From Candidatus Nanopelagicales bacterium (GTDB lineage Bacteria; Actinomycetota; Actinomycetes; S36-B12; CAIYMF01): a stretch of DNA of 64,000 bases. The DNA is taken from the NCBI GenBank assembly GCA_017882705.1, contig JADGOZ010000063.1, positions 1 through 64,000 on the forward strand. Reading direction: 5' to 3'. The translations under genes were made by a program, and so were the position numbers. This document shows, piece by piece, positions 52,344-59,948 of the stretch (the first letter of the stretch is position 1; each line of letters opens with the position of its first letter). The notes beneath the pieces were generated by a model that saw only the letters and a program-made list of their open reading frames with translations, was not told the DNA's origin and made no database searches.

Positions 52344-53705
52344 ATGGCGACGAAGGACACCGCGCACGCGACGAGCGACGGCCCGTCGAAGGTCGAGGCC
52401 GCGCTGCGGCGGGGCATCGAGGCGGGAGACATCGTCGAGGGCGCGCGCTGCTACTACCTCCCGGGCCAGCTGATCCTGTCCGACCTCGCGGCGCGGCTGC
52501 TCGAGGACGAGCTGCGCGAGCTGCAGGCGGAGCATGACCCCGGTGACGACCGTGGGCACGGCTTCCTGGCCGGGCTCCGGCTCCAGCTGTGGCGCGTGGC
52601 CGCGCAGTCCCACGACCTCGTCGCCGTCGCCGCCCGGCTGCACGCCCGTGCGCTCACAATCGTGGACGAACGCGGTCGTGACGTCGACGACGCGACCGAC
52701 GAGCCGGTGATCGTCTCCCTCAACCACGTCGTCCTCGGCCAGCCGCACCCGAGGGGAACGGCGCTCGAGCCACCGCTCGTCACCGCCGCGCACCGGGTCC
52801 TGCTGCCCGCATCCGACGGCGCCGACCCCGACATCGCCATCCTCGACACCGGCGTGCCGTCACCGAAGGAGCTCGCCGACTGGCACCCCGACCTCGAGGA
52901 CGCGGTGCGTCGCGATGCGGCGAACCCGCGCTTCCCCGACGACCTCGACACGTTGTACGAGAACGGAAGTGCGCCATCGCTGCGGGCGCTCGCGGGCCAC
53001 GGCACCTTCATCGCCGGGCTCGTGCGTCTCGTCGCGCCGGAGCTCGTGATCAGCCCCTGCGCGGTGCTCGACCCGGACGGGATCGGCAACGACATCGACG
53101 TCGCCCGTGCCCTCCTGCACGTGGGCTCGCGCCCGATGTCCGTCCCCGTCGTGTCGATGTCGCTCGGTGCCTACACCTACGACGACGCCCCGCCACCCGC
53201 CCTGCAGCACGTCGTCGACCGCCTGCCGCGCACGACCGTGGTCGTCGCTTCCGCAGGCAACGACGGCGTCTCGCGTCCCTTCTTCCCCGCGGCGCTCGCC
53301 CGTGTCGTCGCCGTCGCCGCCTTCGACGACCTCGGTGGCGTCGTGCGTCCTGCACCGTGGAGCAACTTCGGGCCGTGGGTCGACGTCTGCGCTCCCGGTG
53401 TCGGGCTGCTGAGCACCTACGTCGCCGGCACCTACGAGACGTCGCCGGGAGCCACTGAGACGTTCGACGTCCCCGCACCGTCGGCGCGCTGGAGCGGCAC
53501 GTCGTTCGCCGCTCCGCTGGTCGCGGCCGAGATCGCGAGGCGCGTGCGGGAGGACGCCGACACCGGCACCCTGCCCTCGGGCCCGCTCACCGCGGACCAG
53601 GCGTGGCGCGACCTGCAGGCCGAGCTGGAGCGGGTCGACTCCGACCGTGCGGTCGGGCTCGAGTACTGGCCGCCGGTCGACCCGCGTACTCCTCGCCTGC
53701 CCTGA
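52344..53705 (+). CDS. S8 family (subtilisin-like) serine peptidase, no signal peptide
   Basis: DIAILDTGVPSP, GHGTFIAGLV, SAGNDGVSRPFFPAA, RWSGTSFAAPLVAAEIAR. Confidence 0.93.
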   Translation: MATKDTAHATSDGPSKVEAALRRGIEAGDIVEGARCYYLPGQLILSDLAARLLEDELRELQAEHDPGDDRGHGFLAGLRLQLWRVAAQSHDLVAVAARLHARALTIVDERGRDVDDATDEPVIVSLNHVVLGQPHPRGTALEPPLVTAAHRVLLPASDGADPDIAILDTGVPSPKELADWHPDLEDAVRRDAANPRFPDDLDTLYENGSAPSLRALAGHGTFIAGLVRLVAPELVISPCAVLDPDGIGNDIDVARALLHVGSRPMSVPVVSMSLGAYTYDDAPPPALQHVVDRLPRTTVVVASAGNDGVSRPFFPAALARVVAVAAFDDLGGVVRPAPWSNFGPWVDVCAPGVGLLSTYVAGTYETSPGATETFDVPAPSARWSGTSFAAPLVAAEIARRVREDADTGTLPSGPLTADQAWRDLQAELERVDSDRAVGLEYWPPVDPRTPRLP

Positions 53706-53711
53706 CGCCGG

Positions 53712-56342
53712 TCAGGACCCGACGCACACGAACGCCGCAGCCGTCGCGACAGCGAGCGGGTCCTCGGCGTCGCCGGCGGCACGTGCGGTGCTCAGCGCCT
53801 CGGCCGGCGACGCGGAGCGCGCCAGCGCCTCGTGGAAGCGGACCATCAGCGCAGCGGTGACGGCGTCCGGCACCGCCGTGGTCGCCGCGACGACGCTCGC
53901 CGCACCGGCGCCGAGCAGGGTCCAGGCCAGGCCGAGCATCTCCTCGCCGGGCAGGCTCCGGCCCGCGCCGGAGTGGCACGACGGCAGCACGACGGTGTGC
54001 GGCACCCGGTCGAGCCGCTCGAGGTCGTAGCCCATGAGGGGGCCGTCGGCGAGCTCGAGGCTGGAGAAGAGCGGGTTGTCGCCGCGCAGCGACCCGTGCA
54101 CGGCGAGGTGCGCGACATCCGCTCGCCGCAGTGCCGCGGTGACCGCATCGACCGACGCGCCCGGGCCGGTGAGAGACGTGACCCGTCGGTGCAGCGACGC
54201 CACGTGGGCCACCTCCTCGCGTGCGTGGTCGAGACCGGGCCCGGCCACCGCGACGACGCGCGGTGCGCGCGGGCGCGTCCGTGCCTGAGCGCGATGCCAC
54301 GACGTGGCCGAGGGCGTGACCACGACGACGTGGTCGGCGAACGAGACCAGCGACGACCACGGCACGCGCCAGAGGGCTCCGGTGGGCGACACCACGACGT
54401 CGACGGCTCCCAGCAAAGGACGCAACGGGGTCGCGAGCAGCAGGTCGAGCTCGCCGACGGCCGCGGCGAACGACTCGGTGCCGGCACCCCCGAAGCCGGC
54501 GGCCATCCGGCGCAGCGCGAACTCGCACCGGTCGATGGCGCGGCGCGTCTGCGCGACCGGAGCGAGCCGCAGGAGACGGGTGCGGCGGTCGTCGGCGACC
54601 ACGGCGACGACGTCCGCGCCGATGGTCACGAGCTCGACGAGGGTCGTGCCGGCCAGGGCCTCGCGAAGCCGCCGAGCGTCCACGGGAGGGTCGCCGTCGA
54701 CGCCGGACGCCTGCCGGGTGAGCCGCACGACGTGCTGCTCGAGCCGGGCGAGCTCACGCGCGTCGGCGGCGTCGGACCGGCCCGAGAGGGCCGCCTCGTC
54801 CTGCGAGCGCGAGAGCATCCGCAGCCGGCCGAGCGTGGCCGCGAGCTCGGGGTCGTCCGGCGGCAGCGCGGGCGGGAAGCGCAGGCTCGCCGCACGACCG
54901 CGCTCCGCCCACTCGAGGACACCGGCGGCGGAGCCGTCGGCCGCCCGGGAGCGAAGGCCCTCCGCGACGATTCCCACGGCCTGGTGCGCCGTCGTGGCAC
55001 GCAGCTCGCTCGCGCCGACGAGCGCCCGCTGGCGGTCGACCAGGTCCCACCCCGATCGCAGGTGACGCGCGGCTCCCGCACGGTCGCCCTCGAGTCGTCG
55101 CCGCAGCGACTGCAGGTGGTGCGACCTGCTCCGCACCTCCAGCGGGTCGTCGCGTCGCGCCGCGGCGCCGTCGGTGGCGTCCCACGCGAGCGAGGGTCGT
55201 CCTGCCGCGAACGCGGCCGTCGCGACTGCGATGCGCAGGTCGAGTGCGAGCGTGCGCCACCCGCGGTGCTCCAGCCTCGTCGCCGTCCCCAGGTGCGAGC
55301 GGCGCGCGACGCCGTCCCGCTCGAGCTGCGCCACGGCGCGGACCTGGTCGGCGAGCGCCTGCCACGACGACCTGCCCTGCGCCCGGAACATCGCGCCCGC
55401 CGTGTCGGCGTGCGCCTCCGCCTCGTCGAGCCGACCGCCGCGCAGGAGTGCCTGGGCCAGGCCCAGCTGCGCCTCCGCGGCCATCGTGTCCCAGCCCGTG
55501 CGCTGGGCGTCGAGCCACTCCACGGCGCGCGTGGCGGTCGCGACGGCCTCCCGCGTGAGCCCGGCGCGGAGCAGGATGTCGGCGCGGTCGAGCCACGCGA
55601 TCGGGTCGTCAGGGGGGAGCTTGTCCCGGATCTCGTCCCACAGCCGCAACGACTCGGGGATGCGCCCGGACATGCCGAGCATCCAGGCCAGGTCGGAGGC
55701 GGACTGCCCCTCGTGATGGAGCTGGCCGAGCTCGGCGGTGAGCTCCACAGCACGGCGCTGGTCCGCGATCGCGCGGTCGAGCTCACCCCGGTAGGCCAGC
55801 AGCGCCGCCCGGTTGTGGTGCAGCTTCGCGAGCATCGCGCGGTCGTCGTGGTGCTCGAGGAGGGGCTGGGCGGCGGCGTAGGCCTCGAGCGCCTCGTCGG
55901 TGCGGCCCATGGTCTGCAGGACGAGCGCGCGCTGCGCCTCGCCCTTGCCGAGGTCGGCCTCGCCCAGGCCCGTGAGCGCGCGGTCCGCGGCGCGCAGTGC
56001 CTGTGACAACCGGCCACGGCACAGCAGGACGTAGGCGAGCGACATCTGGGCCTGTGCGACTCGCTCCGGCGACCGGGACTTGCGGGCGGAGTCGAGCGAC
56101 AGGCGTATCCGCGACTCGGCCGTGTGCAGGTCGCGGGCCTCCACCAGCGCCAGTGACGCGACGCGGTGAGCCATCGACACGGCGGCCAGCTGCTCGCGCG
56201 TGGCGTCGGCGGACGAGACCGTCGCGACGATCCGGTCTGCCTCGGTGAGCGCGGCCGCGGGATCGGCACCGACGAGGTCGAACGCGGCTTCAGCCTCGTC
56301 GTCGAGCGCGGTCGGCGAGTCCGGCGCCGCGGTCCCCGTCAT
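53712..56342 (-). CDS. TPR-repeat CHAT-domain (caspase-like) protease
   Basis: N-terminal helical/TPR-like repeats; C-terminal CHAT with ADVAHLAVHGSLRGDNPLFSSLELADGPLMGYDLERL and VVLPSCHSGAG (His/Cys dyad). Confidence 0.93.
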   Translation of the reverse strand: MTGTAAPDSPTALDDEAEAAFDLVGADPAAALTEADRIVATVSSADATREQLAAVSMAHRVASLALVEARDLHTAESRIRLSLDSARKSRSPERVAQAQMSLAYVLLCRGRLSQALRAADRALTGLGEADLGKGEAQRALVLQTMGRTDEALEAYAAAQPLLEHHDDRAMLAKLHHNRAALLAYRGELDRAIADQRRAVELTAELGQLHHEGQSASDLAWMLGMSGRIPESLRLWDEIRDKLPPDDPIAWLDRADILLRAGLTREAVATATRAVEWLDAQRTGWDTMAAEAQLGLAQALLRGGRLDEAEAHADTAGAMFRAQGRSSWQALADQVRAVAQLERDGVARRSHLGTATRLEHRGWRTLALDLRIAVATAAFAAGRPSLAWDATDGAAARRDDPLEVRSRSHHLQSLRRRLEGDRAGAARHLRSGWDLVDRQRALVGASELRATTAHQAVGIVAEGLRSRAADGSAAGVLEWAERGRAASLRFPPALPPDDPELAATLGRLRMLSRSQDEAALSGRSDAADARELARLEQHVVRLTRQASGVDGDPPVDARRLREALAGTTLVELVTIGADVVAVVADDRRTRLLRLAPVAQTRRAIDRCEFALRRMAAGFGGAGTESFAAAVGELDLLLATPLRPLLGAVDVVVSPTGALWRVPWSSLVSFADHVVVVTPSATSWHRAQARTRPRAPRVVAVAGPGLDHAREEVAHVASLHRRVTSLTGPGASVDAVTAALRRADVAHLAVHGSLRGDNPLFSSLELADGPLMGYDLERLDRVPHTVVLPSCHSGAGRSLPGEEMLGLAWTLLGAGAASVVAATTAVPDAVTAALMVRFHEALARSASPAEALSTARAAGDAEDPLAVATAAAFVCVGS

Positions 56343-56386
56343 CCCGTGATCGTTCCACGCCCACCGCGCGACGGTGGCTGCGACGG

Positions 56387-56848
56387 CTAGAGCGAGACCC
56401 AGGTGGTGACGATGCGCCCACCCGTGGGGTCCAGGACCGACAGTCGTGCCGGACCTGGCGCGAGGCCCTCGACGTCGAACTGCCCGTCGACGAGCGGAAC
56501 GGTGATGCGGGTGCGACCGCGCTCGATGACGAGGTCGCCGTCGGCCCCGGTGACGAAGCCGCGCATGCGTCGCGTGCCCGTGATCGAGTCGGTCTCGACG
56601 TCGACCTCGATACTGGCGCCGTCGCTCGTGAACGTGAGCATCCGCAGGGTGCCGAGGCTGTCGCGCGTCGCGACGGCAGGCTGGTCGCGCCACGAGTCGG
56701 CCACCAGCGTCGCGATGCGGGAGTCGAGGTCGCGCAGCTCCCAGGACGCCTTCGCGGCGGCGGTCACGTGCTCGGGGACGGCGTCGTGCTGCGCGGCGAG
56801 GTCGCGCAGCAGCGACTCGAGCTCGTCGTCGGTGCTCATGGGCGTCAT
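56387..56848 (-). CDS. Hypothetical small protein between sigma and CHAT genes, carboxypeptidase-regulatory-like fold possible
   Basis: 153 aa MTPMSTDDELESLLRDLAAQHDAVPEHV...VPLVDGQFDVEGLAPGPARLSVLDPTGGRIVTTWVSL. Confidence 0.75.
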   Translation of the reverse strand: MTPMSTDDELESLLRDLAAQHDAVPEHVTAAAKASWELRDLDSRIATLVADSWRDQPAVATRDSLGTLRMLTFTSDGASIEVDVETDSITGTRRMRGFVTGADGDLVIERGRTRITVPLVDGQFDVEGLAPGPARLSVLDPTGGRIVTTWVSL

Positions 56849-56853
56849 CCCCC

Positions 56854-57438
56854 TCACCCCGGGTCCACAGCGAGGTCGGCGTCGATCGCGAGCGTGCGGA
56901 GGGTCGCGAGACAGCGTGCGCGGGTCGGACCGATGCTCCCGACAGGCATGTCGAGGGCCGCCGCGATCTCGGCGTACGACGGCGGGGGCGTGGCGATCAT
57001 GACGCGGAGCAGGCGCCGGCAGCCGTCGGACAGCCGCTCGAACAGGGCCCACAGGGCGGTGTCGCGCTCGCCGCGCAGCAGGTCGTGGTCGACCGGCGGC
57101 CGTGGGTCGGGCACGGTCGACATGATCTCGAGGACGTCGAGCGCCGGCTCGCGCGTCGTGCGCCGCAGCGTGTGCAGGCACTCTCGCCGCGCGGTGGTGG
57201 CCAGCCAGCTGCCGAGGCGCTGCGGGTCCTCGATCCGGTCGAGGTGGTCGAGCAGCCGCAGCCACGTCGTCTGCACGACGTCCGCAGCGTCGTCGTCGGG
57301 CAGCCGGAACGAGCGCGCGACCGACCAGACGAGGGAGTTGAAGCGGTCGACCAGTGCGTCCCAGGACGCGCGATCACCCGCGGCGGCGGCCGCGAGCCGC
57401 GCGCCCAGGTCGTCGTCGATGCCGCCTGCCGTCTCCAC
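56854..57438 (-). CDS. Sigma-70 family (ECF-like) RNA polymerase sigma factor
   Basis: Region 2 LVDRFNSLVWSVARSFRLPDDDAADVVQTTWLRLLDHLDRI; region 4 YAEIAAALDMPVGSIGPTRARCLATLR. Confidence 0.9.
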   Translation of the reverse strand: METAGGIDDDLGARLAAAAAGDRASWDALVDRFNSLVWSVARSFRLPDDDAADVVQTTWLRLLDHLDRIEDPQRLGSWLATTARRECLHTLRRTTREPALDVLEIMSTVPDPRPPVDHDLLRGERDTALWALFERLSDGCRRLLRVMIATPPPSYAEIAAALDMPVGSIGPTRARCLATLRTLAIDADLAVDPG

Positions 57439-57533
57439 CCGTCCTCCCGCGCCGATTCTGTCGGCCGCGAGCGGTCGGTGCCACCGCCTTGGGCGCACCG
57501 TCGTCGGTGGGCGGACGAGCGTGCGCCCGGAGG

Positions 57534-57878
57534 TCAGGACGTCCACTGCCGCGGAAGCGCGCCGTGACGGACCACCCGGCCGAACCGCGGGTGCGACACG
57601 GGGTCGGCGTGGACGACCGGTCCGAAGCGCGAGTGCACCGGCAGCGTGGCGGTCCCACCGGATCCTGACCCGGTGGGCGCCACCGGAGGCGATGCGACCG
57701 CGGCCACGCCGAGCCCGACGGCCGCGACGGCCACGAGGGCTCCGATCGTGAGGGCGACGGTGCGCGTCGGCTGGGGCCACCCGGTGAGACCCTGCGTCAC
57801 CGTGATGTGGTCCCACCTGTCGGCCGCGACCCGCAGGTCGGAGGCCACGCGGTCCTCGGTGCTCGTCGTGCTGCTCAT
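57534..57878 (-). CDS. Hypothetical single-TM protein
   Basis: MSSTTSTEDRVASDLRVAADRWDHITVTQGLTGWPQPTRTVALTIGALVAVAAVGLGVAAVASPP... Confidence 0.65.
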   Translation of the reverse strand: MSSTTSTEDRVASDLRVAADRWDHITVTQGLTGWPQPTRTVALTIGALVAVAAVGLGVAAVASPPVAPTGSGSGGTATLPVHSRFGPVVHADPVSHPRFGRVVRHGALPRQWTS

Positions 57879-58119
57879 GGGTTCCTCCGTGCGTCCGGGG
57901 GAGCGATGGCGAGCGTCGTCCGTGACCCGGCTCCGGGGCACGGGACCCGGCCACGGACGACGATGTCGCCCTGCGCCCGCCCCACCCCCGTGCGGGCCGA
58001 CGCTCCGACCTCAACAGGAGCCACGAGGCGCCCGGCTGATACGTCGAGCGGCGAGGAGATTCCTCGGTCCGGTGATTTCGGACCGCGACGGCGCCGCTGA
58101 TAAGGTCGCTGCACTCCTG

Positions 58120-58194
58120 GCCCCCGTAGCTCAGGGGATAGAGCGGTGCCCTCCGGAGGCATGCGCGCAGGTTCGAATCCTGCCGGGGGCACCA
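58120..58194 (+). tRNA. tRNA-Arg (anticodon CCG), encoded CCA
   Basis: GCCCCCGTAGCTCAGGGGATAGAGCGGTGCCCTCCGGAGGCATGCGCGCAGGTTCGAATCCTGCCGGGGGCACCA folds as a cloverleaf; anticodon loop CTCCGGA. Confidence 0.97.
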
Positions 58195-58280: not shown

Positions 58281-59948
58281 ATGACGCCCGATCAGCTCGC
58301 CGCCGCGATCCGTCACGCCGTCGTGACCGCGATCGCCGAGGGCGACCTCGCCCTCGAGCCCTCCATGGTCCCGGACGAGATCACGGTCGAGCGTCCGCGC
58401 AACCCCGAGCACGGCGACTACGCCACCAACGTGGCCCTGCAGCTGGCCAAGCCGGCCGGCACCAACCCGCGGGCGGTCGCCGAGCTCGTCGCCGTACGTC
58501 TGCGCGACGTCGCCGGGATCGAGGACGTCGACATCGCCGGCCCCGGGTTCCTCAACATCACGCTCGACGCCGCGACGCTCGGCGAGCTCGCGCGGTCGGT
58601 CGTCGTCGCGGGCGAGACCTACGGCCGGATCGACCGCTACGCCGGGCAGAAGTACGACGTCGAGTTCATCTCGGCCAACCCGACCGGCCCGCTTCACCTC
58701 GGTCACACGCGGTGGGCGGCCGTCGGCGACGCGATCGCCCGGGTCCTCGAGGCCGCCGGGGCCGAGGTCGCGCGCGAGTTCTACATCAACGACCGTGGCG
58801 TGCAGATGGACAAGTTCGGCATGTCGCTCGAGGCGCGCGCCCTCGGCGTCGAGCCGCCCGAGGGCGGCTATCAGGGCGGCTACGTCGACGAGCTCGCCCA
58901 GCAGATCGTGGCGGCCGACCCGGCGATCCTCGACCTCGTCGGCGACGCACGGTGGGAGGCGTTCCGCGAGGCCGGCTACGCCCTTCAGCTGCAGCAGCAG
59001 AAGGACGTCCTCGACCACTTCAACACCCACTTCGACGTCTGGTACTCCGAGCGCTCGCTGCACTCGAGCGGTGCGGTCGAGCGCGGCTTCGAGAAGCTGC
59101 GCGAGCAGGGCCACATGTTCGAGGCGGACGGCGCGGTGTGGCTGCGTACGAGCGACTTCGACGACGACAAGGACCGCGTGCTGGTCAAGGCCGACGGCGA
59201 GCTCACCTACTTCGCGAGCGACACCGCCTACTACCTCGACAAGCGCAGCCGTGGGTTCGACGTCAACATCTACCTCCTCGGCGCGGACCACCACGGCTAC
59301 GTCAACCGGCTGCGCGCCGTCTCGGCCTGCGCGGGCGACGACCCCGACGTCAACATCGAGGTGCTCATCGGGCAGCTCGTGAAGATGGTCAAGGGCGGCG
59401 AGGAGGTCCGGCTGTCCAAGCGGGCCGGCAACATGATCACGCTCGAGGACCTCGTCGACGAGGTCGGAGTCGACGCTGCGCGCTACTCCCTCATCCGCTA
59501 CCCCGTCGACAGCCCGCTCGTGCTCGACCTCGACCTGCTCGTCTCGCGGAGCAACGACAACCCGGTCTTCTACGTGCAGTACGCGCACGCACGCATCTCC
59601 TCGGTGCTGCGCGGAGCGGCCGACCTCGGGATCGACTGGCGCTCGGCCGACGCGGACCTGTCTCTGCTCACGCACGAGCGGGAGACGGCGCTGCTCGGCC
59701 TCATCGGCGAGCTGCCTCGAGTCGTGGCCACGGCGTCGGAGCTGCGCGAGCCGCACCGCGTCGCGCGCTACCTCGAGGAGCTGGCCAACGGCTATCACAA
59801 GTTCTACGACGTCTGCCGCGTGCTGCCCATGGCCGACGCCGAGCTCGAGCCGATCAACGTCTCGCGGCTCTGGCTCTGCGCCGCCGCTCGGCAGACCCTG
59901 GCCAACGGCCTGGGGATGCTGGGCGTGACCGCTCCCGAGCGGATGTAG
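58281..59948 (+). CDS. argS: Arginyl-tRNA synthetase
   Basis: [52 protein letters not shown]. Confidence 0.98.

Follow-up and report, generated by a model that had tools for sequence, protein, structure and literature searches.

ECF54 sigma factors are found in Actinobacteria with conserved neighbours encoding a subtilase, a CHAT protein and a 'carboxypeptidase', and proteolytic control has been proposed for them (PMC8999054; the group was defined in Huang 2015 and Casas-Pastor 2021, as cited there). In the review's account, ECF54 is one of the sigma groups for which no anti-sigma factor is known, and its proteolytic mechanism is given as unproven (PMC8999054). Type III-E CRISPR immunity employs TPR-CHAT proteases, and in the CASP/Craspase system Csx29 cleaves Csx30, relieving inhibition of CASP-sigma (PMC10028731). 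CalpL/CalpT/CalpS is a protease/anti-sigma/ECF-sigma cassette of type III CRISPR (PMC11417357).

Here we analyse a locus from an actinobacterial metagenome-assembled genome, Candidatus Nanopelagicales bacterium, lying in a 64,000-nucleotide stretch of DNA (the window), in which genes for an ECF sigma factor, a small protein (SP), a TPR-CHAT protease (CHAT) and an S8 subtilase (S8) stand side by side (Table 1). All five open reading frames of the first-pass annotation were recovered with unchanged boundaries. S8 is convergent with the sigma operon and, as had been reported, 6 bp separate its end from the CHAT stop. The window sigma factor has the ECF build (sigma2 and sigma4 only), judged by its matches to Sigma70_r2 and TIGR02937 and its 194 aa, and it probably belongs to ECF54, judged by the gene neighbourhood as described in the review. 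A subtilase and a CHAT gene lie nearby in its relatives, with all four genes in 38 of 53 loci (drawn from the best 80 of 579) and in the reverse check on CHAT described below. A carboxypeptidase domain is found nearby through relatives of SP rather than the window copy, and its identity with the published domain is inferred. The association of these genes is thus already known, as far as the review describes it (PMC8999054); the first-pass annotation read the neighbourhood correctly as a unit but missed this published context. What is new is the proposed inhibitor, its cleavage site and the promoter. Our main reading, to which we give a probability of about one half, is that the locus encodes an ECF54-type switch on the chromosome that is gated by proteolysis and amplifies its own transcription.

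Table 1. Features of the locus in the window.
Feature	Position	Strand	Match
S8 subtilase, 453 aa	52344-53705	+	Pfam Peptidase_S8 E=6.9e-20, match 162-399
TPR-CHAT protease, 876 aa	53712-56342	-	Pfam CHAT E=1.6e-31, TPR_12 E=2.9e-12
CHAT Cys789 codon	about 53976-53978	-	
CHAT His749 codon	about 54096-54098	-	
SP (small protein), 153 aa, soluble, putative anti-sigma factor	56387-56848	-	
SP Arg62 codon, candidate cleavage site in linker	56663-56665	-	
ECF sigma factor, 194 aa, GTG start	56854-57438	-	Sigma70_r2 E=1.5e-14, TIGR02937 E=2.3e-18
Single-TM protein gene, first of predicted operon	57534-57878	-	
Predicted ECF-sigma promoter GTATCA-N16-CTC	58018-58042	-	Exact motif match
tRNA-Arg CCG	58120-58194		
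argS	58281-59948		

The locus shares with CASP/Craspase (Csx29, Csx30, Csx31, CASP-sigma) a TPR-CHAT protease, an intermediary protein, an ECF sigma factor and sigma motifs within the locus. The window CHAT carries the His/Cys dyad, earlier described as intact, and across 71 homologues His749 is invariant and Cys789 is 99% conserved. Profile comparison shows its CHAT domain to be homologous to Csx29, and the nearest solved CHAT structure is 8rot. Unlike CASP/Craspase, the window unit has an SP without detectable similarity to Csx30 and an extra cytosolic subtilase, and the host genome (91% complete) yielded no match to RAMP (PF03787), as in Cas7-11, or to Cas1 (PF01867); the annotation's remark that this is not a standard Craspase fits these searches. 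In its proposed logic, a protease cleaving the soluble anti-sigma factor of an ECF sigma factor, the unit resembles CalpL/CalpT/CalpS. In that cassette, however, the protease is a Lon-SAVED protein activated by cyclic oligoadenylate, and neither domain occurs in the window unit.

The S8 subtilase has about 160 aa ahead of the Pfam catalytic match. Its D/H/S motifs were rightly called intact, with D168, H219 and S387 identical in 59/59 homologues. Since the catalytic residues of both enzymes are essentially invariant, CHAT and S8 are probably both active proteases. A hydrophobic N-terminus was seen in none of the 59 S8 homologues, in agreement with the cytoplasmic subtilase envisaged before, and a hydrophobic segment in none of 98 SPs. 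The core machinery (sigma factor, SP, CHAT and S8) thus appears cytosolic, whereas in regulated proteolysis of the RseA/DegS/RseP and RsiW type the anti-sigma factors are membrane proteins that sense envelope stress.

Sigma loci were collected by a profile scan of genome contigs. Only the best 80 of 579 were named and, because these are the best-scoring ones, the fractions given here are valid for the close family and not for all relatives. The profile also picks up sigma factors without SP (L079, L123 and L133 in our numbering, for example). Among these best 80 of 579 loci, SP lies directly downstream of the sigma gene in 74. In the 53 of them flanked on each side by 6 kb or more, SP is present in 51, CHAT in 43 and S8 in 42, and all four genes occur in 38. 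The four-gene loci display about ten gene orders and orientations, one of which (L131) is probably noise from ORF boundaries; the commonest layout in relatives is CHAT< S8> sigma> SP>. In the reverse check, covering 15 further CHAT loci, S8 adjoined CHAT in 14, and sigma and SP adjoined as well in 9. Of 397 genomes of the phylum, 26 were reported to have an SP homologue, although two of these (G358 and G391) look spurious by sequence; most of the others have sigma, CHAT and S8 as neighbours, and 23 of the 24 genomes with a true SP contain a CHAT homologue. The pairwise distances of the four proteins are correlated (r 0.85-0.94, 49 loci), with a contribution from shared species history.

Sigma, SP, CHAT and S8 are a unit that recurs across Actinomycetota. 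A chance neighbourhood is ruled out by the co-occurrence across the phylum, the reverse check on CHAT and the correlated divergence. A functional four-gene unit had been proposed by the first-pass annotation, which named a neighbourhood survey as the test that could refute it; with that survey run, the refutation fails because the four genes travel together. Some loci depart from the usual composition. L188 (5743-17181, genome G157) holds two tandem CHAT-S8-SP sets, surrounded by motif sites, for which only one sigma gene was detected. In two Dactylosporangium loci (L100, 5343-7994; L102, 5812-8394) CHAT is missing and a gene for 860-883 aa takes its place, divergent from S8-sigma-SP; the one in L100 encodes FHA plus ABC transporter domains.

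The window SP on its own had no family match in Pfam and NCBIfam. CarboxypepD_reg (PF13620) was matched by 12/24 SP homologues (best E=1.6e-7) and by 18/59. The matched domain is a regulatory-like beta-sandwich that occurs in carboxypeptidases, not the enzyme itself. SP is most likely the 'carboxypeptidase' of the published ECF54 neighbourhood, and we infer that no carboxypeptidase activity is involved. An AF2 model of the window SP (59 sequences) has helices at residues 7-21 and 26-55 and a confident beta-sandwich at 68-147, joined by a linker of low confidence (mean pLDDT 62-66 over residues 51-70). A comparison of the SP profile with the PDB gave no Csx30 chain at E<=1, and Foldseek returned weak beta-sandwich matches alone, with no significant fold match; neither search linked SP to Csx30, CalpT or an established anti-sigma factor. 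With its helices and a non-catalytic, CarboxypepD_reg-like sandwich, SP is placed like a cytoplasmic anti-sigma factor, and its inhibition of the sigma factor is putative. Of 93 sigma-SP gene pairs, 42 share a 4-nt overlap, and the two genes stay together even in G146 and G178, where the proteases sit elsewhere in the genome. A tandem of the two proteins, an in-frame sigma-stop-SP reading of L073 used as a modelling device and no real fusion, gave an AF2 model with pTM 0.44 and no confident interface.

The linker between the two SP domains varies in length, and its Arg62 is near-invariant, being found in 82 of 84 non-redundant SPs; the other two have Arg two residues earlier. Val precedes it in 63/82 and Gly, Ser or Ala follows in 78/82. 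That this residue hardly changes while the flexible linker around it varies suggests that it is recognised or cleaved. Proteases of the caspase/separase/gingipain clan commonly have Arg at P1. As an alternative, Arg62 could make a contact with the sigma factor or with the sandwich. Craspases cut non-conserved sites (PMC11106740), whereas the candidate site in SP is conserved. The earlier suggestion that the small protein is an inhibitor or a substrate gains support from the adjacency to sigma, the frequent 4-nt overlap and the conserved linker Arg. SP genes without an adjoining sigma factor of the family occur in L036, L038 and L048, with the motif 55 bp ahead of the L038 orphan; both L036 and L038 belong to genome G102, whose third SP is part of a complete unit (L058). 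Loci of Catellatospora, Allorhizocola and Rhizocola (L066, 5271-5963; L075, 5476-6147; L080, 5264-5932) encode, downstream of CHAT, a protein of 220-230 aa with the motif upstream, and the one scanned, that of L066, has a C-terminal CarboxypepD_reg-like domain resembling that of SP.

The published view of ECF54, as far as the review sets it out, has no anti-sigma factor; our reading instead takes the 'carboxypeptidase' to be SP, a putative anti-sigma factor without catalytic function, and adds a proposed promoter motif and cleavage site. According to that published proposal (PMC8999054), the proteases would degrade the sigma factor itself and so keep it inactive, and SP could then be an adaptor that presents it. 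That both proteases are cytosolic and conserved agrees with such a mechanism, but it takes SP for a carboxypeptidase or leaves it out. No other component is linked to sigma more tightly than SP, and the domain that SP matches is non-catalytic. If the proteases did nothing but switch sigma off, sigma-driven S8 would amount to negative feedback, which is possible but would leave the linker Arg of SP unexplained, and we regard degradation of the sigma factor as unlikely.

A candidate promoter was derived from word counts in upstream regions, which gave GTATC..CTCT, refined to GTATCA-N16/17-CTC. The unit loci, 1.81 Mb in all, contain 128 copies of the refined motif, where shuffled sequence contains 4-7. 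With redundant loci removed, 25 of 152 regions ahead of unit genes carry it, compared with 1 of 3040 shuffled regions and with 26 of 660 regions ahead of other genes in these loci. GTATCA-N16-CTC is therefore predicted, from these sequence counts, to be the promoter of this ECF sigma factor, and its position ahead of the window operon speaks for the sigma control of expression assumed in the first-pass annotation. The exact pattern is found once in the host genome, 164 bp ahead of the TM gene. This single copy is partly luck, because background copies occur in other genomes and the chance of at least one in a shuffled 64-kb window is 16%; the argument rests on enrichment across genera. As a marker of a genome-wide regulon the motif was rejected, with background copies up to several per Mb in other genomes.

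Of the 25 loci with the commonest layout, 20 have the motif directed at S8-sigma-SP and none has it directed at CHAT, so CHAT need not depend on the sigma factor. Where CHAT-S8 lies apart from sigma-SP, the motif is still upstream of S8 in L182, L186 and L194; the window S8 has no motif upstream. In Streptomyces and relatives an AAA_16/LuxR (LAL-type) gene stands beside the unit (L134, 3401-5212; L101, 3774-5672; L118, 3241-5883; L107, 6143-8059), with the GTATCA motif at or just ahead of its start. The distance is 33 bp in most Streptomyces, where the predicted start is that of an AAA_16/GerE regulator, a spacing consistent with leaderless transcription. The LAL-type regulator is a likely fifth, sigma-driven component. 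Streptomyces that carry the unit include S. violaceorubidus (L134), S. tendae (L137) and S. parvulus (L145).

The single-TM gene, which had been noted upstream of the unit, is indeed there, but its place inside the operon, behind the motif and upstream of sigma, had been missed. Its product has no family match in Pfam and NCBIfam. A genus-mate (L089) keeps the repetitive C-terminus of the protein upstream of sigma, and in L063 an unrelated-looking gene of 180 aa takes the same position, also behind the motif. The TM gene is best described as a lineage-specific first gene of the predicted operon. Both genus-mates have imperfect repeats SHxR(F/L)GxVV in this C-terminus (window 57534-57878; L089 3-149). 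The unit is present in 2 of 10 genus-mates. The trmB-argS interval measures 0.43 kb, with the tRNA alone, in G007 and 6.1 kb in the window genome, and in other genus-mates it holds unrelated metabolic genes; the unit was gained or lost as a block. In the window the tRNA-Arg beside argS shares the strand of argS, but most genus-mates have the two on opposite strands; in G002, another genome with the unit, the tRNA did not turn up in the 1.5 kb around argS. The unit seems to go along with a local inversion.

The patchy presence and block-wise gain or loss, together with the role of TPR-CHAT proteins in type III-E CRISPR immunity (PMC10028731), would suit a conflict or suicide module, in which the two proteases would be effectors released or induced on infection and sigma-SP would set expression. 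We consider this, if anything, harder to sustain than degradation of the sigma factor. PADLOC matched S8 with generic subtilase and IetS models and none of the other genes; no CHAT match was found among 72,556 plasmids, and viral contigs gave no match to a single sigma query. No defence genes were identified beside the unit, whose surroundings are housekeeping ones, with metabolic genes in the trmB-argS interval of relatives, and it is retained in many chromosomes of several classes. The conflict role offered in the first-pass annotation finds no support in the PADLOC, plasmid and viral searches or in the housekeeping interval, although the plasmid, viral and RAMP/Cas1 negatives are weak arguments against defence. 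Phage or plasmid cargo was likewise set aside, given no viral match to the single sigma query and no CHAT match on plasmids.

In the proteolysis-gated switch that we prefer, the N-terminal helices of SP would hold the sigma factor inactive in the cytoplasm, and the TPR part of CHAT would read some signal. Activated CHAT, alone or with S8, would cut the flexible linker of SP after Arg62. The free sigma factor would then bind GTATCA-N16-CTC, leading to transcription of TM-sigma-SP-CHAT in the window and, in relatives with the commonest layout, of S8-sigma-SP, as well as of the LAL/LuxR regulator gene in Streptomyces. When the signal ends, fresh SP would reset the switch. CHAT would be the initiator, not driven by sigma in the commonest layout, and S8 a sigma-induced second protease; this division of labour is the least secure step, and it is not uniform, because the window CHAT lies inside the sigma operon and the window S8 lacks the motif. 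By analogy, the switch would work like Craspase or CalpL/T/S, without CRISPR.

For the switch speak the co-occurrence and correlated divergence of the four genes, the coupling of SP to sigma, the linker Arg, the conserved catalytic residues and the motif enrichment, along with the homology of CHAT to Csx29 and the precedents of protease/anti-sigma/ECF-sigma cassettes (PMC10028731, PMC11417357). Against it stand the missing sigma-SP interface in the tandem model, the dissimilarity of SP to known anti-sigma factors, the orphan SPs, the window exceptions in motif and layout, and the published ECF54 proposal, which in the review's account has no anti-sigma factor (PMC8999054). The low pTM of the tandem and the SP copies without adjoining sigma, one with a motif upstream, would also fit an SP that is a cofactor of sigma, or a substrate-effector whose cleaved fragment acts elsewhere, but SP keeps its place beside sigma where the proteases are elsewhere and often overlaps it by 4 nt, which makes this quite improbable. 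A more specific version of the switch is put forward tentatively: the unit may be a widespread, CRISPR-free relative of the type III CRISPR cassettes, with SP as a new family of soluble anti-sigma factors whose linker is cut at V-R/(G,S,A), between Arg and the small residue, by TPR-CHAT, and with a cytosolic, sigma-induced subtilase that amplifies or executes the response.

The unproven proteolysis of ECF54 is now reduced to three points that can be tested in cultivable Streptomyces: whether SP is an anti-sigma factor, whether it is cut at the conserved Arg, and whether the promoter is the one defined here. If the reading is true, ordinary chromosomal regulation across Actinomycetota would include sigma factors gated by caspase-family proteases, and the CRISPR cassettes built on this logic may have taken over a type of switch that already existed.
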